Below are positions 37,092 to 45,074 of a DNA stretch of 64,000 nt, piece by piece (the stretch's first letter is position 1; every line of letters begins with the position of its first letter). This DNA is from Tessaracoccus defluvii (GTDB lineage Bacteria > Actinomycetota > Actinomycetes > Propionibacteriales > Propionibacteriaceae), in assembly GCF_014489575.1 (NCBI RefSeq), contig NZ_CP060789.1, positions 744,001 to 808,000 on the forward strand, read 5' to 3'. The position numbers and the translations under genes were made by a program. The notes beneath the pieces are model-generated. The model saw nothing but the letters and a program-made list of their open reading frames with translations, was not told where the DNA came from and searched no databases.

Positions 37092-38963
37092 ATGTCGACG
37101 CAGAAAAGACGAACGCTCCGTGAACGGCTGGCCGCCCCGACCCACCTGTGGGGGCGGCTGGCCACCACTCTGATCCCCGTCGCGGTCATCGGGGTCTGGC
37201 TCAAACTGATCCGGATCGACCGGTTCTACCCGGGATCGGATCTGCTGGGGACGCTGACGAAGGTGTCCTCCGACGTGGCCTTCGGCGCCGCCTGGATCCT
37301 GCTGTGGTTCGTGCTGTGCGTGTTCTCCCGCGGCTGGCTGCGCGCGGTGCTCTTCTACCTCGCCCACATCGCCAGCTGTGTGGTCGGCGTCTACATCGTC
37401 GTCAACCACGAGTTCGGTCTCCGTACGGGCAACCCGCTCACGTGGGACACGATGGTCTACGCCTTCACGCAGGGTGACCAGCTCGCCGGGCTCGTCGGCT
37501 CCGAGATGACCGACAGCGCTATCGCGCTGCTCTGGACGATCATCGCCTCCACCCTGGCGCTGCCCCTCCTCGTGGGGCGCCTCATCGACCCGCTGTTGCG
37601 CTGGCGGCCCCGCAAGGGGGTCAAGCGCGCCGCCGTGCTGGCGCTCGTCGCGCTGCTGTTCGGATCCTCGTGGACGGCGCCGACCGCCTCTGCCGCGTTC
37701 GCCCTGGCGGCGCCGGTCCGGCTGGCCGTCTCGCCTGTGCGTGACGCCTTCGCGTACCCGTCCGTCTCGGACGCGTGGCCGACCGACCCCGGAGAGACGA
37801 CGCTGACTCCCCGGGACGGGGCCCAGCACCGCAATCTGGTGCTCATCACATTGGAATCCCAGCGGGCGACCTCGACGCTTCCCGAGACCAGGCAGCCCGT
37901 GACGCCCGTCCTCGACGCCCTCGCCGCGGACAGCATCACGCCACGCCGGGGCTACTCGGTGTTCCCCCACACCTCGAAGGCACTCACCGCCGTGACGTGC
38001 GGCATCGTGCCGCCGGCTGACGCGGCCAACTCGGAGGCCGAGCCGACCGACGGCATCCCAGCCGCATGCCTGCCCGCGCTGCTGGGGGAGCAGGGCTACG
38101 CATCGAAGTTCTTCCAGACGGCGACCGAACACTTCGAGCGGCGCCGCGGCACCGCCGCCAACTTCGGCTACGACGAGTTCATGCCCGTCGACGAGATGTC
38201 GACCGTCGGCTTCCACCGGGCCAACTACTTCGGCTACGAAGAGGACATCATGCTCGAGCCGCAGCGGGAGTGGCTGGAGCAGCAGGAGGGCCCGTTCATG
38301 CTCGGCATGCTGACGGTGACGGGGCACCACGACTACAAGCTGGAGGGCTACGAGGAGATCGACTTCGTCGACGACCCGCTGCTGAACAAGTACCTCAACA
38401 GCATCCACTATCAGGACGCCTTCGTCGGCCGGCTCATCGACATGTTCAAGGAACTGGGGCTCTACGAGGACACCGTCTTCATCATCACCGGCGACCACGG
38501 CGAGGGCTTCGGGGAGCATCGGGTCTACCAGCACGACAACACGATCTACGAGGAGGGGATCCGCATCCCCTACCTGATCCACGACCCGCTGCGTGAGGGG
38601 CAGGTCCTCGACGACCCGACCGACCAGCTGGCCATTCTGCCGACCGCCGTCGACCTGCTCGGCTTCGACCTGGTGGGCGCCGAGGGCTACCGCCCGTCGC
38701 TGCTGAGCGGCGAGGAGCAGCCCCCGGTCGTGGCCACGTGCTACGCCAGGGCCCGCTGCATGGCGACCATCGACGGCGACATGAAGGTGATCCACCACTT
38801 CGGCGACCGGCGCGACGAGGTGTTCGACCTCTCGACGGACAACTACGAGCGGGTCGACCTCGCAGACCAGTACGACGAGGCGTGGCGCAACCGGCACAGC
38901 GAGTTCGCCACGAAGTGGTACGTCGCCGCCGAGAACTTCTACGAGGCCGCCCGCGAGCAGTAG
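37092..38963 (+). CDS. LtaS-like membrane sulfatase/phosphoglycerol transferase
   Basis: Protein of 623 residues: about five transmembrane helices in the first 215 residues, then an extracytoplasmic alkaline phosphatase-superfamily domain. Metal site LVLITLESQRATST near residue 250, the nucleophile-type VFPHTSKALTAVTCG (Thr of PHTSKAL), and the second metal site IITGDHGEGFGEH with YQHDNTIYEEGIRIPYL match the LtaS/arylsulfatase-like transferases. It may transfer phosphoglycerol or phosphoethanolamine to a wall polymer or glycolipid; classic lipoteichoic acid is not expected in this group, so the acceptor is open. It lies between nusA and ylxR. Confidence 0.82.
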   Translation: MSTQKRRTLRERLAAPTHLWGRLATTLIPVAVIGVWLKLIRIDRFYPGSDLLGTLTKVSSDVAFGAAWILLWFVLCVFSRGWLRAVLFYLAHIASCVVGVYIVVNHEFGLRTGNPLTWDTMVYAFTQGDQLAGLVGSEMTDSAIALLWTIIASTLALPLLVGRLIDPLLRWRPRKGVKRAAVLALVALLFGSSWTAPTASAAFALAAPVRLAVSPVRDAFAYPSVSDAWPTDPGETTLTPRDGAQHRNLVLITLESQRATSTLPETRQPVTPVLDALAADSITPRRGYSVFPHTSKALTAVTCGIVPPADAANSEAEPTDGIPAACLPALLGEQGYASKFFQTATEHFERRRGTAANFGYDEFMPVDEMSTVGFHRANYFGYEEDIMLEPQREWLEQQEGPFMLGMLTVTGHHDYKLEGYEEIDFVDDPLLNKYLNSIHYQDAFVGRLIDMFKELGLYEDTVFIITGDHGEGFGEHRVYQHDNTIYEEGIRIPYLIHDPLREGQVLDDPTDQLAILPTAVDLLGFDLVGAEGYRPSLLSGEEQPPVVATCYARARCMATIDGDMKVIHHFGDRRDEVFDLSTDNYERVDLADQYDEAWRNRHSEFATKWYVAAENFYEAAREQ

Positions 38964-38969
38964 GCGTCG

Positions 38970-39503
38970 TCAGCGGGAGTGGTCTCCACCCCGGACCCGC
39001 ACGATCCCCTCCTCGACAGCCTTCGCGACCGCGTCGGCCTCCGCCTGCGTGAGCGTGCCGTCGGTCACCGCCTTCTCGAGCACCTCCTTGTCGGAGGCGG
39101 TCCGTGCGGCCTCGCGCTCCGAGCGGAGCTCGTCGATGGCGGCCGTGACCTTCGACTCGTCGAGGCCGAGGGCCTCGGCCAAGGCCTGTGCGAACGCGGC
39201 CTCCCTGGCCGAGCGGTCGGCCTCACGGTCCTCTGATGCAGCGCCGCGGACCTTGTCGATCGCGTCTCGCAGCGTGGTCTCCTCGACGCCCAGCTTCTCC
39301 GCGAGTCCGGAGACGTCCCGGAACCCGCCGCGGCCGTGCCTGCCGCCGTGCCCCTGGTCCTGCGACGGCGCGGTCGCCCCAGCCGAGGTGGTGGGCGTCG
39401 GCGACGGTGACGCAGTCTCCGCCTGTGCGAGCTGCGCGGCGCCCAGGCCGACGCCTGCGGCGAGCACCGCCGTCGATACTCCGAGAATGATGCGCTTGGT
39501 CAT
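38970..39503 (-). CDS. secreted small helical protein with repeated helix-turn motifs
   Basis: Exported protein of 177 residues. A signal peptide (1-28, cleavage near LAQAE) is followed by a Ser/Thr/Pro linker, a Gly/His-rich patch (GHGGRHGRGG) and a helical domain with two related units: SGLAEKLGVEETTLRDAIDKV and, later, LAEALGLDESKVTAAIDELR, then TDGTLTQAEADAV. Such proteins are widespread in actinobacteria and unassigned. The His/Gly patch might bind metal (speculation). GAAAGGA precedes the ATG at 39503. It is convergent with the LtaS-like gene. Confidence 0.75.
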   Translation of the reverse strand: MTKRIILGVSTAVLAAGVGLGAAQLAQAETASPSPTPTTSAGATAPSQDQGHGGRHGRGGFRDVSGLAEKLGVEETTLRDAIDKVRGAASEDREADRSAREAAFAQALAEALGLDESKVTAAIDELRSEREAARTASDKEVLEKAVTDGTLTQAEADAVAKAVEEGIVRVRGGDHSR

Positions 39504-39604
39504 GGTCGATCCTTTCGTCACGCCGGGGAGGTCCCGGCCGTGAACCCACCGTGCGTGGGGAAGCTGTCAGCCGCCTGTGGGACGGCTGGCAGTCGGCTGG
39601 GGAC

Positions 39605-39610
39605 TAGGCT
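39605..39610 (+). promoter_or_regulatory. -10 box for ylxR (leaderless)
   Basis: TAGGCT ends 7 nt before the GTG at 39618 and decides the start. Confidence 0.55.
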
Positions 39611-39617
39611 GCAGGGC

Positions 39618-39851
39618 GTGAATCCGCAGCGGACCTGTATTGCATGCCGCGCCCGGTGCGACCAGGCCGACCTCGTCCGCCTCGTGCGTGTGGGCGACCT
39701 GATCGTCGACGGCACGTCGCCCCGGCTCCCCGGCCGCGGGGCCTATCTCCATGCCGGCTGTTTCGACCTGGCGCAACGCCGTGGGGCCTTCCGGCGGGCG
39801 TTCGGTCCGGCCGCCCGACTCGGCGCGACACGCCCGGTTGGTGACCCGTAG
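39618..39851 (+). CDS. ylxR: YlxR family nucleic-acid-binding protein
   Basis: Short basic protein of 77 residues with RTCIACRARCDQADLVRLVR and LPGRGAYLHAGCFDLAQRRGAF, the YlxR signature (an RNA-binding fold; in some bacteria RnpM, which modulates RNase P). The short form starting at GTG 39618 is preferred over an upstream ATG because the family starts at this point and a -10 box lies 7 nt before it. It normally follows nusA directly; here 2.6 kb separates them. Confidence 0.92.
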   Translation: MNPQRTCIACRARCDQADLVRLVRVGDLIVDGTSPRLPGRGAYLHAGCFDLAQRRGAFRRAFGPAARLGATRPVGDP

Positions 39852-39867
39852 CGGGTGGGGATATGAT
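39838..39867 (+). promoter_or_regulatory. infB promoter
   Basis: TTGGTG and TATGAT are 18 nt apart. Predicted transcription start is near 39875, giving an infB leader of about 150 nt. Confidence 0.6.
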
Positions 39868-39927
39868 TGCTGACGGCCTACGTCCGCGTGGCCGCATCGT
39901 TCCACGCCCGTTCCGGGCGCCAACCAG

Positions 39928-39987
39928 AAGGTGGGCTAACGCTCATGACCACTCGATGAGTACCCAACGATGATCAAGCACAACTAG
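39928..39987 (+). other. infB leader with three chained overlapping mini-ORFs
   Basis: After an SD-like AAGGTGG (39928-39934) come ORFs MTTR-stop (39945-39959), MSTQR-stop (39956-39973) and MIKHN-stop (39970-39987). Each later ATG overlaps the previous stop in ATGA. infB has its own SD further downstream. A ribosome terminating on one could re-initiate on the next, so the chain may meter initiation capacity; this is inference. Confidence 0.5.
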
Positions 39988-40025
39988 GGAATCCGGCCTT
40001 GGGGTCGGGCCCGCGAAGGAGAGTA

Positions 40026-42851
40026 GTGGCTAAGCCTCGCGTTCACGAGATCGCCAAGGAAATCGGGATTTCTAGCAAAGACCTTCTCACCAAGCTCGGT
40101 GAGTTGGGCGAATACGTCCGCGGACCGTCCTCCACGTTGGAGGCGCCTGTCGTCCGCAAGATCCGGGAGGCGTACAACGCCGGCGGATCCGACAACCAGT
40201 CCAAGCCCCAGGCCGCGCCGAAGCCGGCGCCGGCAAAGCCCGCCGCACCCCAGGCCACGCCGGCAGCGCCGGCAGTGACCCCTGGTGCGGTCGACCCCAC
40301 GGCTGCGCAGCCGGCCCGCCCGGCCGCCCCGCGCCCCGCCGCACCGACCCCCGCCCCGCGTCCCGCGGCACCGGCCCCCGGCCCGGCGGCCAAGCCTGCG
40401 GCGACCCCGCCGGCAGCGGCCCCCGCGCCGCGTCCCGCTGCGCGCCCCGGTGGTGCGGCTCCGGCCCCCGGCCCGCGTCCCGCTGCGCCGACCCCGGCTC
40501 CCCGCCCCGGCGGGGCACCGACTCCCGGTCCCCGCAAGCCCGGCGCACCGCGCCCGGGTAACAACCCGTTCGCCCCGTCGCAGGGCATGGGCACTCAGCA
40601 GCGACGCGCCCCGCGTCCTGACGGTGCCCCGCGCCGCGACGGCCCCGGTGGCGCCCGTCCCGGTGCACCCGCGGGCGGCGACAACCGGATGCCCCGTCCC
40701 GGCGGCACCGGCGGCCTGCCCGGCATGCCGCGCCCCAACCCCGCGATGATGCCGAAGACGGCCAACGCCGCGATCGGCGCCCGTCCCTCGCGTCCCGGCC
40801 AGGGTGGCCCCGGCCGTGGTCGTCCCGGCGGTGGCGGCGGTGCCCGCCCCGGCGCGGGCGGCCCGCCCATGGGCGGCGGCCCGATGGGTGGCCCCGGCGG
40901 TCGCGGAGGCGGCCGTGGCCGCGGCGGCACGCAGGGTGCCTTCGGTCGTGGCGGCGCCGCAGGTAAGCGTGGTCGCAAGTCGAAGAAGCAGCGCAGGCAA
41001 GAGTTCGACCAGATGGAGGCCCCCGCGATCGGCGGCGTGCGCGTCCGGAAGGGCGAGGGACAGACCGTCCGGCTCCGCCGCGGTGCCTCGCTGACGGATC
41101 TCGCCGAGAAGATCGGCGTCGACGCGGCGTCGCTCGTGCAGGTGCTGTTCCACCTGGGCGAGATGGTCACCGCGACGCAGTCGGTCGCCGACGACACCCT
41201 CGAGGTGCTGGGCGCCGAACTCGACTACAACATCGAGGTCGTCTCCCCGGAGGACGAGGACCGCGAGCTGCTCGAGAGCTTCGACCTGGAGTTCGGCGAG
41301 GACATCGGCGACGAGGACGATCTGGCGGCACGTCCGCCCGTCGTCACCGTCATGGGCCACGTCGACCACGGCAAGACGAAGCTCCTCGACGCCCTGCGGC
41401 ACGCCAATGTGCAGGCCCGCGAGGCCGGCGGCATCACCCAGGCGATCGGCGCCTACCAGGTGGAGACTGTCGTCGACGAGGCCGAGCGCGCGATCACCTT
41501 CATCGACACCCCGGGCCACGAGGCGTTCACCGCCATGCGTGCCCGTGGTGCCAAGTCGACCGACATCGCGGTGCTGGTCGTCGCGGCCGATGACGGTGTC
41601 ATGCCGCAGACCATCGAGGCGCTCAACCACGCCAAGGCGGCAGACGTCCCGATCGTGGTGGCGGTCAACAAGATCGACAAGGAGACGGCCGACCCGGTCC
41701 GTGTCCGCGGTCAGCTGTCCGAGTTCGGACTGGTTCCCGAGGAGTACGGCGGCGACACCCAGTTCGTCGACGTGTCCGCGGTCACCCGCGAGGGCCTGGA
41801 CCACCTGCTGGAGTCGATCGTCTTGACGGCCGACGCCGCGCTCGATCTGCGTGCGAACCCCGACATGCCTGCGCAGGGTGTGGCCATCGAGGCCCACCTC
41901 GACAAGGGCCGCGGCCCGGTTGCCACCGTCCTGGTGCACCGCGGCACGCTGCGGATCGGTGACTCCATCGTCGCCGGTTCGGCCCACGGCCGCGTCCGCG
42001 CGCTGATCAACGATCAGGGCGACACCATCACCGAGGCCCCGCCGTCGATGCCCGTCCAGGTGCTCGGCCTGACGTCCGTGCCGGGAGCCGGCGACAACTT
42101 CCTCGTTGTCGACGACGACCGCATGGCCCGCCAGATCGCCGACAAGCGTGAGGCCCGCATGCGGGCCGCCATGCAGGCGAAGACGAGCCGTCGCAAGACC
42201 CTCGACCAGCTGTTCGAGCAGATGGAGAAGGGCGAGACGCAGGAGCTGCTCCTCATCCTCAAGGGTGACGGCGCCGGTTCTGTGGAGGCCCTCGAAGACG
42301 CCCTCAGCAAGATCGAGGTCGGCGAAGAGGTGTCGCTGCGCGTCATCGACCGCGGTGTCGGTGCGATCACCGAGACCAACGTCTCGCTCGCCGCGGCCTC
42401 CAAGGCCGTCATCCTCGGCTTCAACGTGCGGCCCACGCCGCACGCGACCCAGATGGCGGACCGGGAGAACGTGGACATCCGCTTCTACTCGGTCATCTAC
42501 GCCGCGATCGACGAGATCGAGGCCGCGCTCAAGGGCATGCTCAAGCCGATCTACGCCGAGGAGATCCGCGGTCACGCGGAGATCCGTGAGGTCTTCCGTT
42601 CCTCCAAGTTCGGCAACATCGCCGGCTGTATGGTCACCAACGGCACCATGCGGCGCAACGCCAAGGCGCGTCTGCTCCGCGACGGCGTCGTCATCGCCGA
42701 CACCTCGGTCGCCTCGCTGCGACGCGAGAAGGACGATGCGACCGAGGTCCGCGAGGGCTTCGAGTGTGGTCTGACTCTGTCGAACTACAACGACATCCGG
42801 ATCGGTGACATCGTCGAGACGTACGAGATGGTGGAGAAGGAGCGCGACTGA
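40026..42851 (+). CDS. infB: translation initiation factor IF-2
   Basis: GTPase that places initiator tRNA on the 30S subunit. It has 941 residues. An N-terminal IF2N helix set ([22 protein letters not shown]) is followed by a long Ala/Pro then Gly/Arg-rich disordered linker (about 60-310), a second IF2N, the G domain with [19 protein letters not shown] and NKID, then domains II-IV (C-terminal [12 protein letters not shown]). AAGGAGAG precedes the GTG start. rbfA begins 1 nt after the stop. Confidence 0.97.
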
Positions 42852-42852
42852 C

Positions 42853-43293
42853 ATGGTGGGCCCACGCAACGCGAAGCTCGCTGACCAGATCAAGGTGCTG
42901 CTGGCGTCGACGATCGACCGTAGGGTGAAGGACCCCCGTCTGGGGTTCGTCACCATCACGGAGGTCCGCCTCTCCGGTGACAACCGGGAGGCGACGGCGT
43001 TCTACACGGTGCTGGGCGACGACGAGGCGCGCGCCGGTTCCGCGGCCGCCCTCGCGTCGGCCACCGGGATGCTCCGTTCGACGGTCGGCGCCCAGCTCGG
43101 GATGAAGTTCACCCCGACGCTGGCGTTCGTCCTGGACGCGACGCCCGAGTCGGCCCGCCACATCGAGGACCTGCTCGCGCAGGTCCAGGCGAGCGACGCC
43201 GAGGCCGCGGCGGCCGCGCGCGGCAAGGAGTTCGCCGGCGAGGCTGACCCCTACAGGCAGCCCCGCCAGGCCGAGGAAGCCGACCAGCAGTGA
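42853..43293 (+). CDS. rbfA: 30S ribosome-binding factor A
   Basis: Cold-shock and 16S 5'-end maturation factor for the 30S subunit. It has 146 residues with the KH-like RbfA fold: [23 protein letters not shown], then [27 protein letters not shown], and an acidic tail. ATG 42853 is 1 nt after infB. The end overlaps truB by GTGA. Confidence 0.95.
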
Positions 43294-44152
43294 ACCACGC
43301 CTCGGGGGTGGTGATCGTCGACAAGGAGTCGGGGGTCACCTCCCACCAGGTGGTGGGGCGGCTGCGGCGGCTGCTCGGCACCCGCAAGATCGGCCACGCC
43401 GGCACCCTCGACCCGATGGCGACCGGCGTCCTGATCCTCGGCGTCAACCGGGCGACCCGCCTGCTCGGACACCTGGCACTCCACGACAAGCGGTACCTGG
43501 CCACGGTCCGGCTGGGGGAACGCTCCGACACCGATGACGCCGACGGCACCGTCGAGCCGGTCGCTCCCGCGGCCGGCCTCAGCATCGCCGCGGTGGACGC
43601 GGCGCTCGCGCCGCAACGCGGCGACATTCTGCAGCGTCCCAGCAGCTTCTCCGCCATCAAGGTGGAGGGTAAGCGCGCTTACGCGCTGGCCAGGGCCGGT
43701 GAGGCGGTTGAGCTGAAGAAACGTCCCGTGACGATCACCCGGCTCGACGTGCTCGGGGCGCGGGTGGAGGGCGACTGCCTCGACGTCGACCTCGACGTTG
43801 AATGCTCGTCTGGCACCTACGTCCGGGCCATCGCCCGGGACCTGGGTGAGGCTCTCGGGGTGGGGGGCCACCTGACCAGCCTGCGCCGCACCCGCATCGG
43901 CGGCTACGACATCGCCGACGCCGTCCGGCTCGGCGACGAGCCCCCGCGCTGCTCAGCATGGCCGAGGCGGCCCGGCGCAGTTTCCCCGTGGTCGAGCTGA
44001 CCGCCGAGGAGGCCGTCGACGTCGGCTTCGGGCGGCGCCTCAGCCGGACCGTCCCGGGCACCCCGACCGGCGTCCTCGATCCGGCCGGCAACCTGCTGGC
44101 CCTCTACGAGCCCAGCGACGCGGGCGCCAAGCCGCTCGCCGTCCTCGTGTGA
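43290..44152 (+). CDS. truB: tRNA pseudouridine(55) synthase (frame broken at 43941-43945)
   Basis: Makes pseudouridine 55 in the T-loop of tRNAs. About 287 residues when repaired. Seen: [21 protein letters not shown], catalytic Asp in [32 protein letters not shown] and [15 protein letters not shown]. The C-terminal PUA-like part ([19 protein letters not shown]) is in another frame; one extra C in the CCCCC at 43941-43945 joins them ([13 protein letters not shown]). The GTG start overlaps the rbfA stop. Confidence 0.93.
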
Positions 44153-44189
44153 TCGCCGTCGAACATAGATTCCTCGAAGGAGCAACCAG

Positions 44190-45074
44190 GTGAACGAATC
44201 TGTCGTGGTGATCGGCAACTTCGACGGCGTGCACGCCGGCCACAGGCGGGTCCTGCAGGCAGCCCTCGCCGGTGACGGCCTGCCCGTCATCGTCGTGACG
44301 TTCTGGCCCCATCCGGTGACCGTGCTCCGGCCCGGCCAGGCGCCCAAACTCCTGAGTGACCTGCGCACCCGCATCGAGCTGCTCCGCGAGGCGGGGGCCC
44401 ACGAGGTGCGGGTCATCTCGTTCACGCCGGACGTAGCCGCCCTCAACCCCGCGACTTTCGTCGAGCGGTTCCTGCTGCCGCTCAACCCACGCAGGATCGT
44501 GGTGGGAGAGAACTTCCGCTTCGGGGCGAAGGCGGCCGGCGACGTCGCCACGCTCGCCACCCTCGGGCAGGGCCGCTTCGCGGTCGAGCCGGTGGCCCTC
44601 GAACACGACGCCGACGGCGTCACCTGCTCCACCTCCATCCGGCAGCAACTGGTCGACGGCGACGTCGAGGGGGCCGCACGTCAGCTGGAGCGTCCGTTCC
44701 GGTTCCGCGGTGTCGTCGTGGTCGGAGACCAGCGCGGACGGCAGCTCGGCTTCCCGACGGCGAACCTGACGGTGCCCTCCGACATGGCGGTGCCCGCTGA
44801 CGGCGTCTACGCCGGTTGGCTGACGCGCCTCGACGAACCCGGGGCTGCGCCGATGGCCGCCGCGATCTCCGTCGGGACGAACCCCACGTTCGACGGAGCT
44901 GATCGCCGCGTCGAAAGCTATGTCATCGACCGCACCGACCTGGAGCTCTACGGCGTCGAGGTGGCGGTGGACTTCGTCGCGCGGCTACGCGGCCAGGTGC
45001 GATTCACGGGCGTCGACGACCTCATCGTGCAGATGCGTGCCGACGTCGACCGCGCCCGGGAGGCGCTGGCCTGA
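44190..45074 (+). CDS. ribF: bifunctional riboflavin kinase / FAD synthetase
   Basis: Converts riboflavin to FMN and FAD. It has 294 residues. The N-terminal adenylyltransferase domain has VVIGNFDGVHAGHR and GENFRFGAKAAGD; the C-terminal kinase domain has GRQLGFPTANL and AISVGTNPTFDGADRRVESYV. AAGGAG lies 7 nt before the GTG start. It has the usual place after truB. Confidence 0.95.
   Translation: MNESVVVIGNFDGVHAGHRRVLQAALAGDGLPVIVVTFWPHPVTVLRPGQAPKLLSDLRTRIELLREAGAHEVRVISFTPDVAALNPATFVERFLLPLNPRRIVVGENFRFGAKAAGDVATLATLGQGRFAVEPVALEHDADGVTCSTSIRQQLVDGDVEGAARQLERPFRFRGVVVVGDQRGRQLGFPTANLTVPSDMAVPADGVYAGWLTRLDEPGAAPMAAAISVGTNPTFDGADRRVESYVIDRTDLELYGVEVAVDFVARLRGQVRFTGVDDLIVQMRADVDRAREALA

Follow-up and report, generated by a model that had tools for sequence, protein, structure and literature searches.

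What is a run of three minute open reading frames, each overlapping the stop of the one before it, doing immediately ahead of infB, which encodes translation initiation factor IF2, in Tessaracoccus defluvii? We examined a window of 64,000 nt, the whole stretch of DNA analysed, and give coordinates from its first letter. On its forward strand, a Shine-Dalgarno (SD)-like AAGGTGG (39928–39934, from the sequence and from predicted SD pairing) is followed by mini-ORF 1 (MTTR-stop, ATGACCACTCGATGA, 39945–39959), mini-ORF 2 (MSTQR-stop, ATGAGTACCCAACGATGA, 39956–39973) and mini-ORF 3 (MIKHN-stop, ATGATCAAGCACAACTAG, 39970–39987), the second and third each opening at an ATGA overlap with the preceding stop and having no SD of their own. 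The stop of mini-ORF 3, TAG, is joined to no start and lies 38 nt upstream of the infB GTG (40026). An earlier, sequence-only reading had given the coordinates of the three mini-ORFs and of AAGGTGG exactly; it was also right about the ATGA overlaps, though it counted three linked junctions where three ORFs give two. The chain has a G+C content of 46.5% against 70.9% for the window, and a search of the genome allowing up to two mismatches returned one exact match, at this locus, and one other site with two mismatches.

The gene order around the chain is rimP (by reading), nusA (Pfam), a sulfatase-domain gene (37092–38963, Pfam), an opposite-strand ORF (38970–39521, reverse strand, with no Pfam match and a start that by eye resembles a signal peptide), ylxR (39540–39851, forward strand, an open frame with a putative start and a Pfam YlxR match at E 2.1e-13), infB (40026–42851, forward strand, with Pfam matches to IF-2, GTP_EFTU and IF2_N), rbfA and truB (by reading). 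Between 36057 and 39851 the usual nusA–infB operon looks interrupted by the sulfatase-domain gene and the opposite-strand ORF, so that infB probably needs its own promoter. A putative infB promoter, identified by sequence on the forward strand, consists of a −35-like TTGGTG (39838–39843) and, after 18 nt, a −10-like TATGAT (39862–39867), and is overlapped by the 3′ end of ylxR. This had been called a good promoter beforehand. A TAnnnT hexamer is aligned at the −10 position in all 35 genus leaders (32 by regular expression and, as TAACAT, L012, L013 and L027 by eye), but a sigma-70 consensus scan reported no promoter here at its threshold. Between promoter and mini-ORF 1, a minimum-free-energy fold that is weak on its own predicts two hairpins in the 5′ leader (39874–39918, forward strand), in whose arms letters appear, by eye, to change together across genus leaders L001–L036. 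The minimum-free-energy fold of the whole leader is no better than that of shuffled letters (z-score 0.01).

The simplest answer to the question would be that the chain is a chance arrangement in one genome. It is contradicted both by conservation across the class and by the shuffle tests, on which grounds we rejected it; its probability is negligible. Counting both strands, the 64 kb contain a single chain with at least three ATG-started mini-ORFs, this one, against a mean of 0.075 in 40 shuffles, as the sequence-only reading had argued in calling the arrangement non-random. The same holds for the leaders of relatives: in a set of 157, nine of them fetched by motif, ATG-only chains of at least three ORFs were present in 142 leaders and in 0 of 3140 shuffled leaders. 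With ATG, GTG and TTG starts the counts were 155 of 157 against 38 of 3140, and the opposite strand, used as a control with the same starts, gave such chains in 2 of the 157.

Leaders were collected by infB protein matches, blind to the leader itself, in 59 of the 60 nearest relatives and in 107 of 118 class genomes, and all were read. At least three linked mini-ORFs occur in 170 of 172 same-class infB leaders not retrieved by motif, which represent 38 family tags; in the two exceptions (L154, L222) two ORFs are linked and the third begins 2 nt past the stop. The 172 comprise 153 of the 162 leaders of the main set, 14 leaders from genomes of the order that were selected for not having the exact motif, and five further leaders, of which 152, 13 and 5, respectively, make up the 170. 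Left out are the nine motif-fetched leaders of the main set (L183–L191) and the motif-match loci L082–L111. L205 and L066 share a genome, the weak matches L236 and L237 are spurious, and the infB starts of L038, L046, L050, L194 and L206 were set by hand. The tags covered are f1–f4, f6–f11, f79–f90, f92–f95 and f97–f108, while for f5, f91 and f96 there was no infB match that could be used. Within the class sample, the chain was found in 106 of 107 leaders; the 11 of 118 class genomes without an infB match (a spurious match only in G466, none in the other ten) stand outside the count, as does the genus member G018. Two consecutive stop/start overlaps of 4 or 1 nt are present in 161 of the 162 leaders of the main set, the nine motif-fetched ones included. 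The earlier supposition that similar stretches precede infB in other actinobacteria is strongly supported for this class, and comparison of the leaders, which had been proposed with it, finds starts and stops kept in relatives throughout.

The exact motif was found once each in 130 of 147 genomes of the order, with no match for the reversed control. Among the 17 genomes without it, 16 leaders were read, 15 with the triple and one (G545) with a two-ORF form; the remaining genome, G018, gave no infB. Across the phylum the exact motif occurs in one of 396 genomes, that of the window itself, but this search does not delimit the element, since 36 same-class genomes and one same-order genome in which the spelling differs were missed. 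In named genomes, the chain pattern matched at least 118 stretches, and among the matches listed all 80 precede infB (79 by regular expression, L244 by eye), including those of Nocardiopsis, Kineococcus, Janibacter, Ornithinimicrobium, Actinoallomurus and Thermobifida. Of three bins with an actinobacterial infB leader (L251, L268, L302), one is titled Spirochaetaceae and two are titled Bifidobacterium (B. breve); L251 and L302 are probably mislabelled. No chain of three was found in 27 infB leaders from other classes, which had at most two linked ORFs with ATG, GTG or TTG starts; these are 27 of 30 loci returned from 83 genomes with a match (the other three were same-class), searched by the detector over 130 and 250 nt, with the match position standing in for an infB start that was not set in eight of the 27. 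Three leaders of family f2 (L045, L048, L182) have five linked mini-ORFs rather than three.

What is kept in these leaders, and what is free to vary? The second junction is ATGA in all 161 triples, and the first is ATGA in 140, GTGA in 10, TGATG in 10 and TAATG in one. All three starts are ATG in 146 triples, with GTG at ORF2 in 10 and at ORF1 in five. Starts are spaced (11,14) in 120 of the 161 and by nine other pairs elsewhere, always 2 mod 3; this phase is built into the way a chain is defined, and what carries information is that nearly all blindly collected leaders conform to it. As read with the family tags, GTGA junctions occur in f7, f93, f11 and f94, TGATG in f92, f2 and f11, TAATG in f11 and a GTG-started ORF1 in f94, a scatter over several tags from which we infer that changes of junction and start arose several times. 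Comparison of L013 with L022, both of the genus, shows one inserted nucleotide shifting the phase of ORF2, from MST-stop/MR-stop to MKYMR-stop, with the chain still closed. Such rephasing and such variable junctions are expected of coupling but of neither a binding word nor a functional peptide. The linkage of stops to starts is almost certainly under selection, and what the comparison shows to be selected, as judged from the sequences, is the linkage rather than the peptides, the codons or any exact length. The base after the ORF1 ATG is A in 117 of the 120 leaders with the commonest spacing, where no upstream stop forces it.

Three other accounts of the chain bear on these patterns, each with a low probability. 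Were it a sensor of UGA termination by RF2, slow termination at the ATGA junctions would alter the relay, and it is true that every ATGA or GTGA junction ends an ORF in UGA. That follows from the overlap by construction, one leader has TAATG, and the last stop of the triple (TAG in 77, TAA in 51, TGA in 33, the last count including internal stops of longer chains) has no preference for UGA, so that we rejected this account as improbable. An untranslated repeat, with CGATGAG as a word bound by protein or acting as a DNA element, would explain why CGATGAG-like words recur in most leaders; it is slightly more improbable still, because word and spacing change while the linkage stays, as in the GTGA, TGATG and TAATG junctions and in low-GC leaders, whose mini-ORFs are of the MRKI-stop/MKLK-stop kind. 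The least probable of the three is a codon or peptide attenuator, for instance one responding to arginine through the CGA before the first stop. That codon is indeed found in 121 of 161 triples, but ten other codons take its place in the remaining 40, and the A before TGA is forced by ATGA. We found no conserved regulatory codons or peptide in the 161 triples, which have 34, 76 and 113 distinct peptides at ORF1, ORF2 and ORF3, and it is for this lack of peptide conservation that attenuation was rejected.

How ribosomes might enter and traverse the chain is suggested by the pattern of predicted SD pairing, computed against an assumed 16S tail. At infB the SD GAAGGAG (40015–40021, forward strand; from the sequence and the pairing prediction) is strong, with a median over leaders of −8.9 kcal/mol against −6.0 for shuffled letters, while that of ORF1 is weak and only slightly above shuffled (−6.3 against −5.6). 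ORF2 (−2.6, shuffled −3.3) and ORF3 (−2.2, shuffled −2.7) both pair more weakly than shuffled letters. Lacking an SD, they should be reached by reinitiation only, and the missing SDs are consistent with a dependence on translation of the upstream ORF. Precedents exist: in E. coli, ORFs joined by AUGA or UAAUG without an SD are read only by ribosomes coming from the upstream ORF (PMC9955659), and AUGA reinitiation has been shown with reporters for M. tuberculosis ppe2 (PMC11260477). It is very probable, given this conservation, that the chain is translated as a reinitiation relay.

Between the last stop and the infB SD lies a hairpin (39987–40012, forward strand; inner stem 39992–39998 with 40003–40009), supported by folding and by covariation over 56 leaders. 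These were hand-picked for diversity after an initial fold and do not include L165, L167, L172 or L179. Across them 91.7% of the cells of the 6-bp stem are paired and 20 changes are two-sided; none of the 500 shuffles or of the slid versions attains its covariation score. Pairs that have a two-sided change number three, a figure reached in 81 of 500 shuffles and so not beyond them, and an automatic fold kept four of the six pairs. A stable hairpin is present in 157 of 161 leaders and missing, by the criteria used, in L165, L167, L172 and L179; in 129 of the 161, at most one of 20 shuffles was as stable. It begins 0–6 nt after the last stop and ends 11–20 nt ahead of the infB start. We rejected a terminator attenuator or a known RNA family, there being no intrinsic terminator with a T run in 39500–40300 (the hairpin before infB has none) and no match to Rfam 15 families at gathering score in 37500–44500. 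In five leaders (L038, L046, L168, L170, L171) the infB SD is itself predicted to pair with part of the hairpin region, possibly as an SD-masking variant.

Measured with the hairpin left out, the path from last stop to infB start is 12–22 nt long in 158 leaders (median 16, sd 2.5), the full distance having a median of 42; shuffled regions gave a median of 17 and an sd of 6.1, so that only the spread, and not the median, is smaller in real leaders. Two hairpin-less leaders of f86 (L167, L179) have 20–21 nt from stop to start. It would appear to matter that the last stop is close to the start of infB, with the hairpin bridging the rest. Such a tight path would suit a constitutive ribosome loader, a translated and non-regulatory leader that keeps ribosomes on the mRNA, shields it and hands them past the hairpin for high IF2 output. 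Its anatomy would be the same as that of a regulatory relay, and the spread of the path (sd 2.5 against 6.1 in shuffles) speaks for it too, yet a single ORF would be enough to load ribosomes, which leaves the retention of three linked ones unexplained, and we consider this account unlikely, although well ahead of the three accounts above.

Our best explanation, which we hold with some confidence, is that the leader acts in cis as a termination–reinitiation relay to infB, perhaps gauging initiation capacity, with negative feedback as a tentative sign. Entering at ORF1 through its imperfect SD, ribosomes would come to the stop within a few codons, start again at the AUG of ORF2 that overlaps it and then at that of ORF3, both without an SD, and finish 0–6 nt ahead of a hairpin that would shorten the way to the SD and start of infB. 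That the relay controls infB translation is likely, although infB has a strong SD of its own and may initiate independently. Nothing beyond repeated initiation, termination and recycling is demanded by the relay, so that the quantity gauged would most likely be initiation capacity, with IF2 synthesis adjusted to it; sensing of this kind, which the sequence-only reading had suggested, fits, and the free peptides and codons beside the kept linkage make it plausible, if tentative. Loss of short peptidyl-tRNAs is reportedly promoted by IF1 and IF2, to go by the title of a 1998 paper, and would give negative feedback: with IF2 (and IF1) abundant, the mini-ORFs would lose short peptidyl-tRNAs and fewer ribosomes would arrive at infB, and low IF2 would let more of them pass. 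A simple hand-over driven by capacity would give positive feedback, so that the negative sign is weakly founded, and we think it doubtful.

Bacterial leaders with mini-ORFs are usually read as sensors of codons or drugs; here, selection is on repeated stop/start linkage before the gene of an initiation factor, in nearly every genome of the class that was read. This points to a widespread link between the restarting of ribosomes and the production of IF2, makes the infB leader a natural system for reinitiation without an SD, and indicates that mini-ORFs of 2–6 codons can be strongly selected and yet escape gene callers. A possible, more speculative extension is a class-wide control of the GCN4 type, in which infB gauges initiation capacity through three initiation events, IF2 sets its own level and the hairpin serves as bridge. 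If true, the level of IF2 would be set by the very step that IF2 catalyses, as a bacterial counterpart of GCN4 control.

Among the papers listed by the literature searches, to which supplementary tables, preprints and most subscription journals did not belong, there was no description of a chain in an infB leader; AUGA reinitiation, mini-ORFs in leaders and autogenous control of translation factors are each known as components, and the chained, class-wide and peptide-independent form is apparently undescribed. In yeast GCN4, reinitiation after short uORFs reports initiation capacity, and several short uORFs ahead of the target are likewise found in infB leaders, but GCN4 is eukaryotic, with scanning ribosomes and uORFs that lie far apart. 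In viral ribosome shunting, also with scanning ribosomes, a short ORF stops immediately upstream of a stem that precedes the start, as at infB. The prfB frameshift is a case of a translation-factor mRNA using the step that its product catalyses, at one shift site and not through a chain of ORFs. Autogenous control of infC by a non-standard start codon shares that logic and resides in one codon, unlike the chain at infB (PMC5472188). Short leader ORFs are also common to the amino-acid leader-peptide attenuators of actinobacteria, which have runs of regulatory codons where infB leaders have none (PMC1262725). The axe-txe leader minigenes resemble the infB leader in their very short ORFs, cis-acting translation and the importance of the distance from stop to target, but in what could be seen of PMC8708949 they form no stop/start-linked chain of three and class-wide conservation is not reported. 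Termination–reinitiation coupling at ATGA/TGATG overlaps (PMC6728339) and RTGA-linked small proteins in mycobacteria (PMC4633059) share the 4-nt and 1-nt stop/start overlaps; they concern gene pairs or one small ORF and a gene, whereas the infB leader has at least three mini-ORFs, unconserved peptides and a main gene that is not overlapped. The M. tuberculosis ppe2 uORF, finally, passes ribosomes from a leader ORF to the next ORF by AUGA reinitiation, as proposed here, although it is a single uORF behind a B12 riboswitch and overlaps its target directly, unlike the infB chain (PMC11260477).
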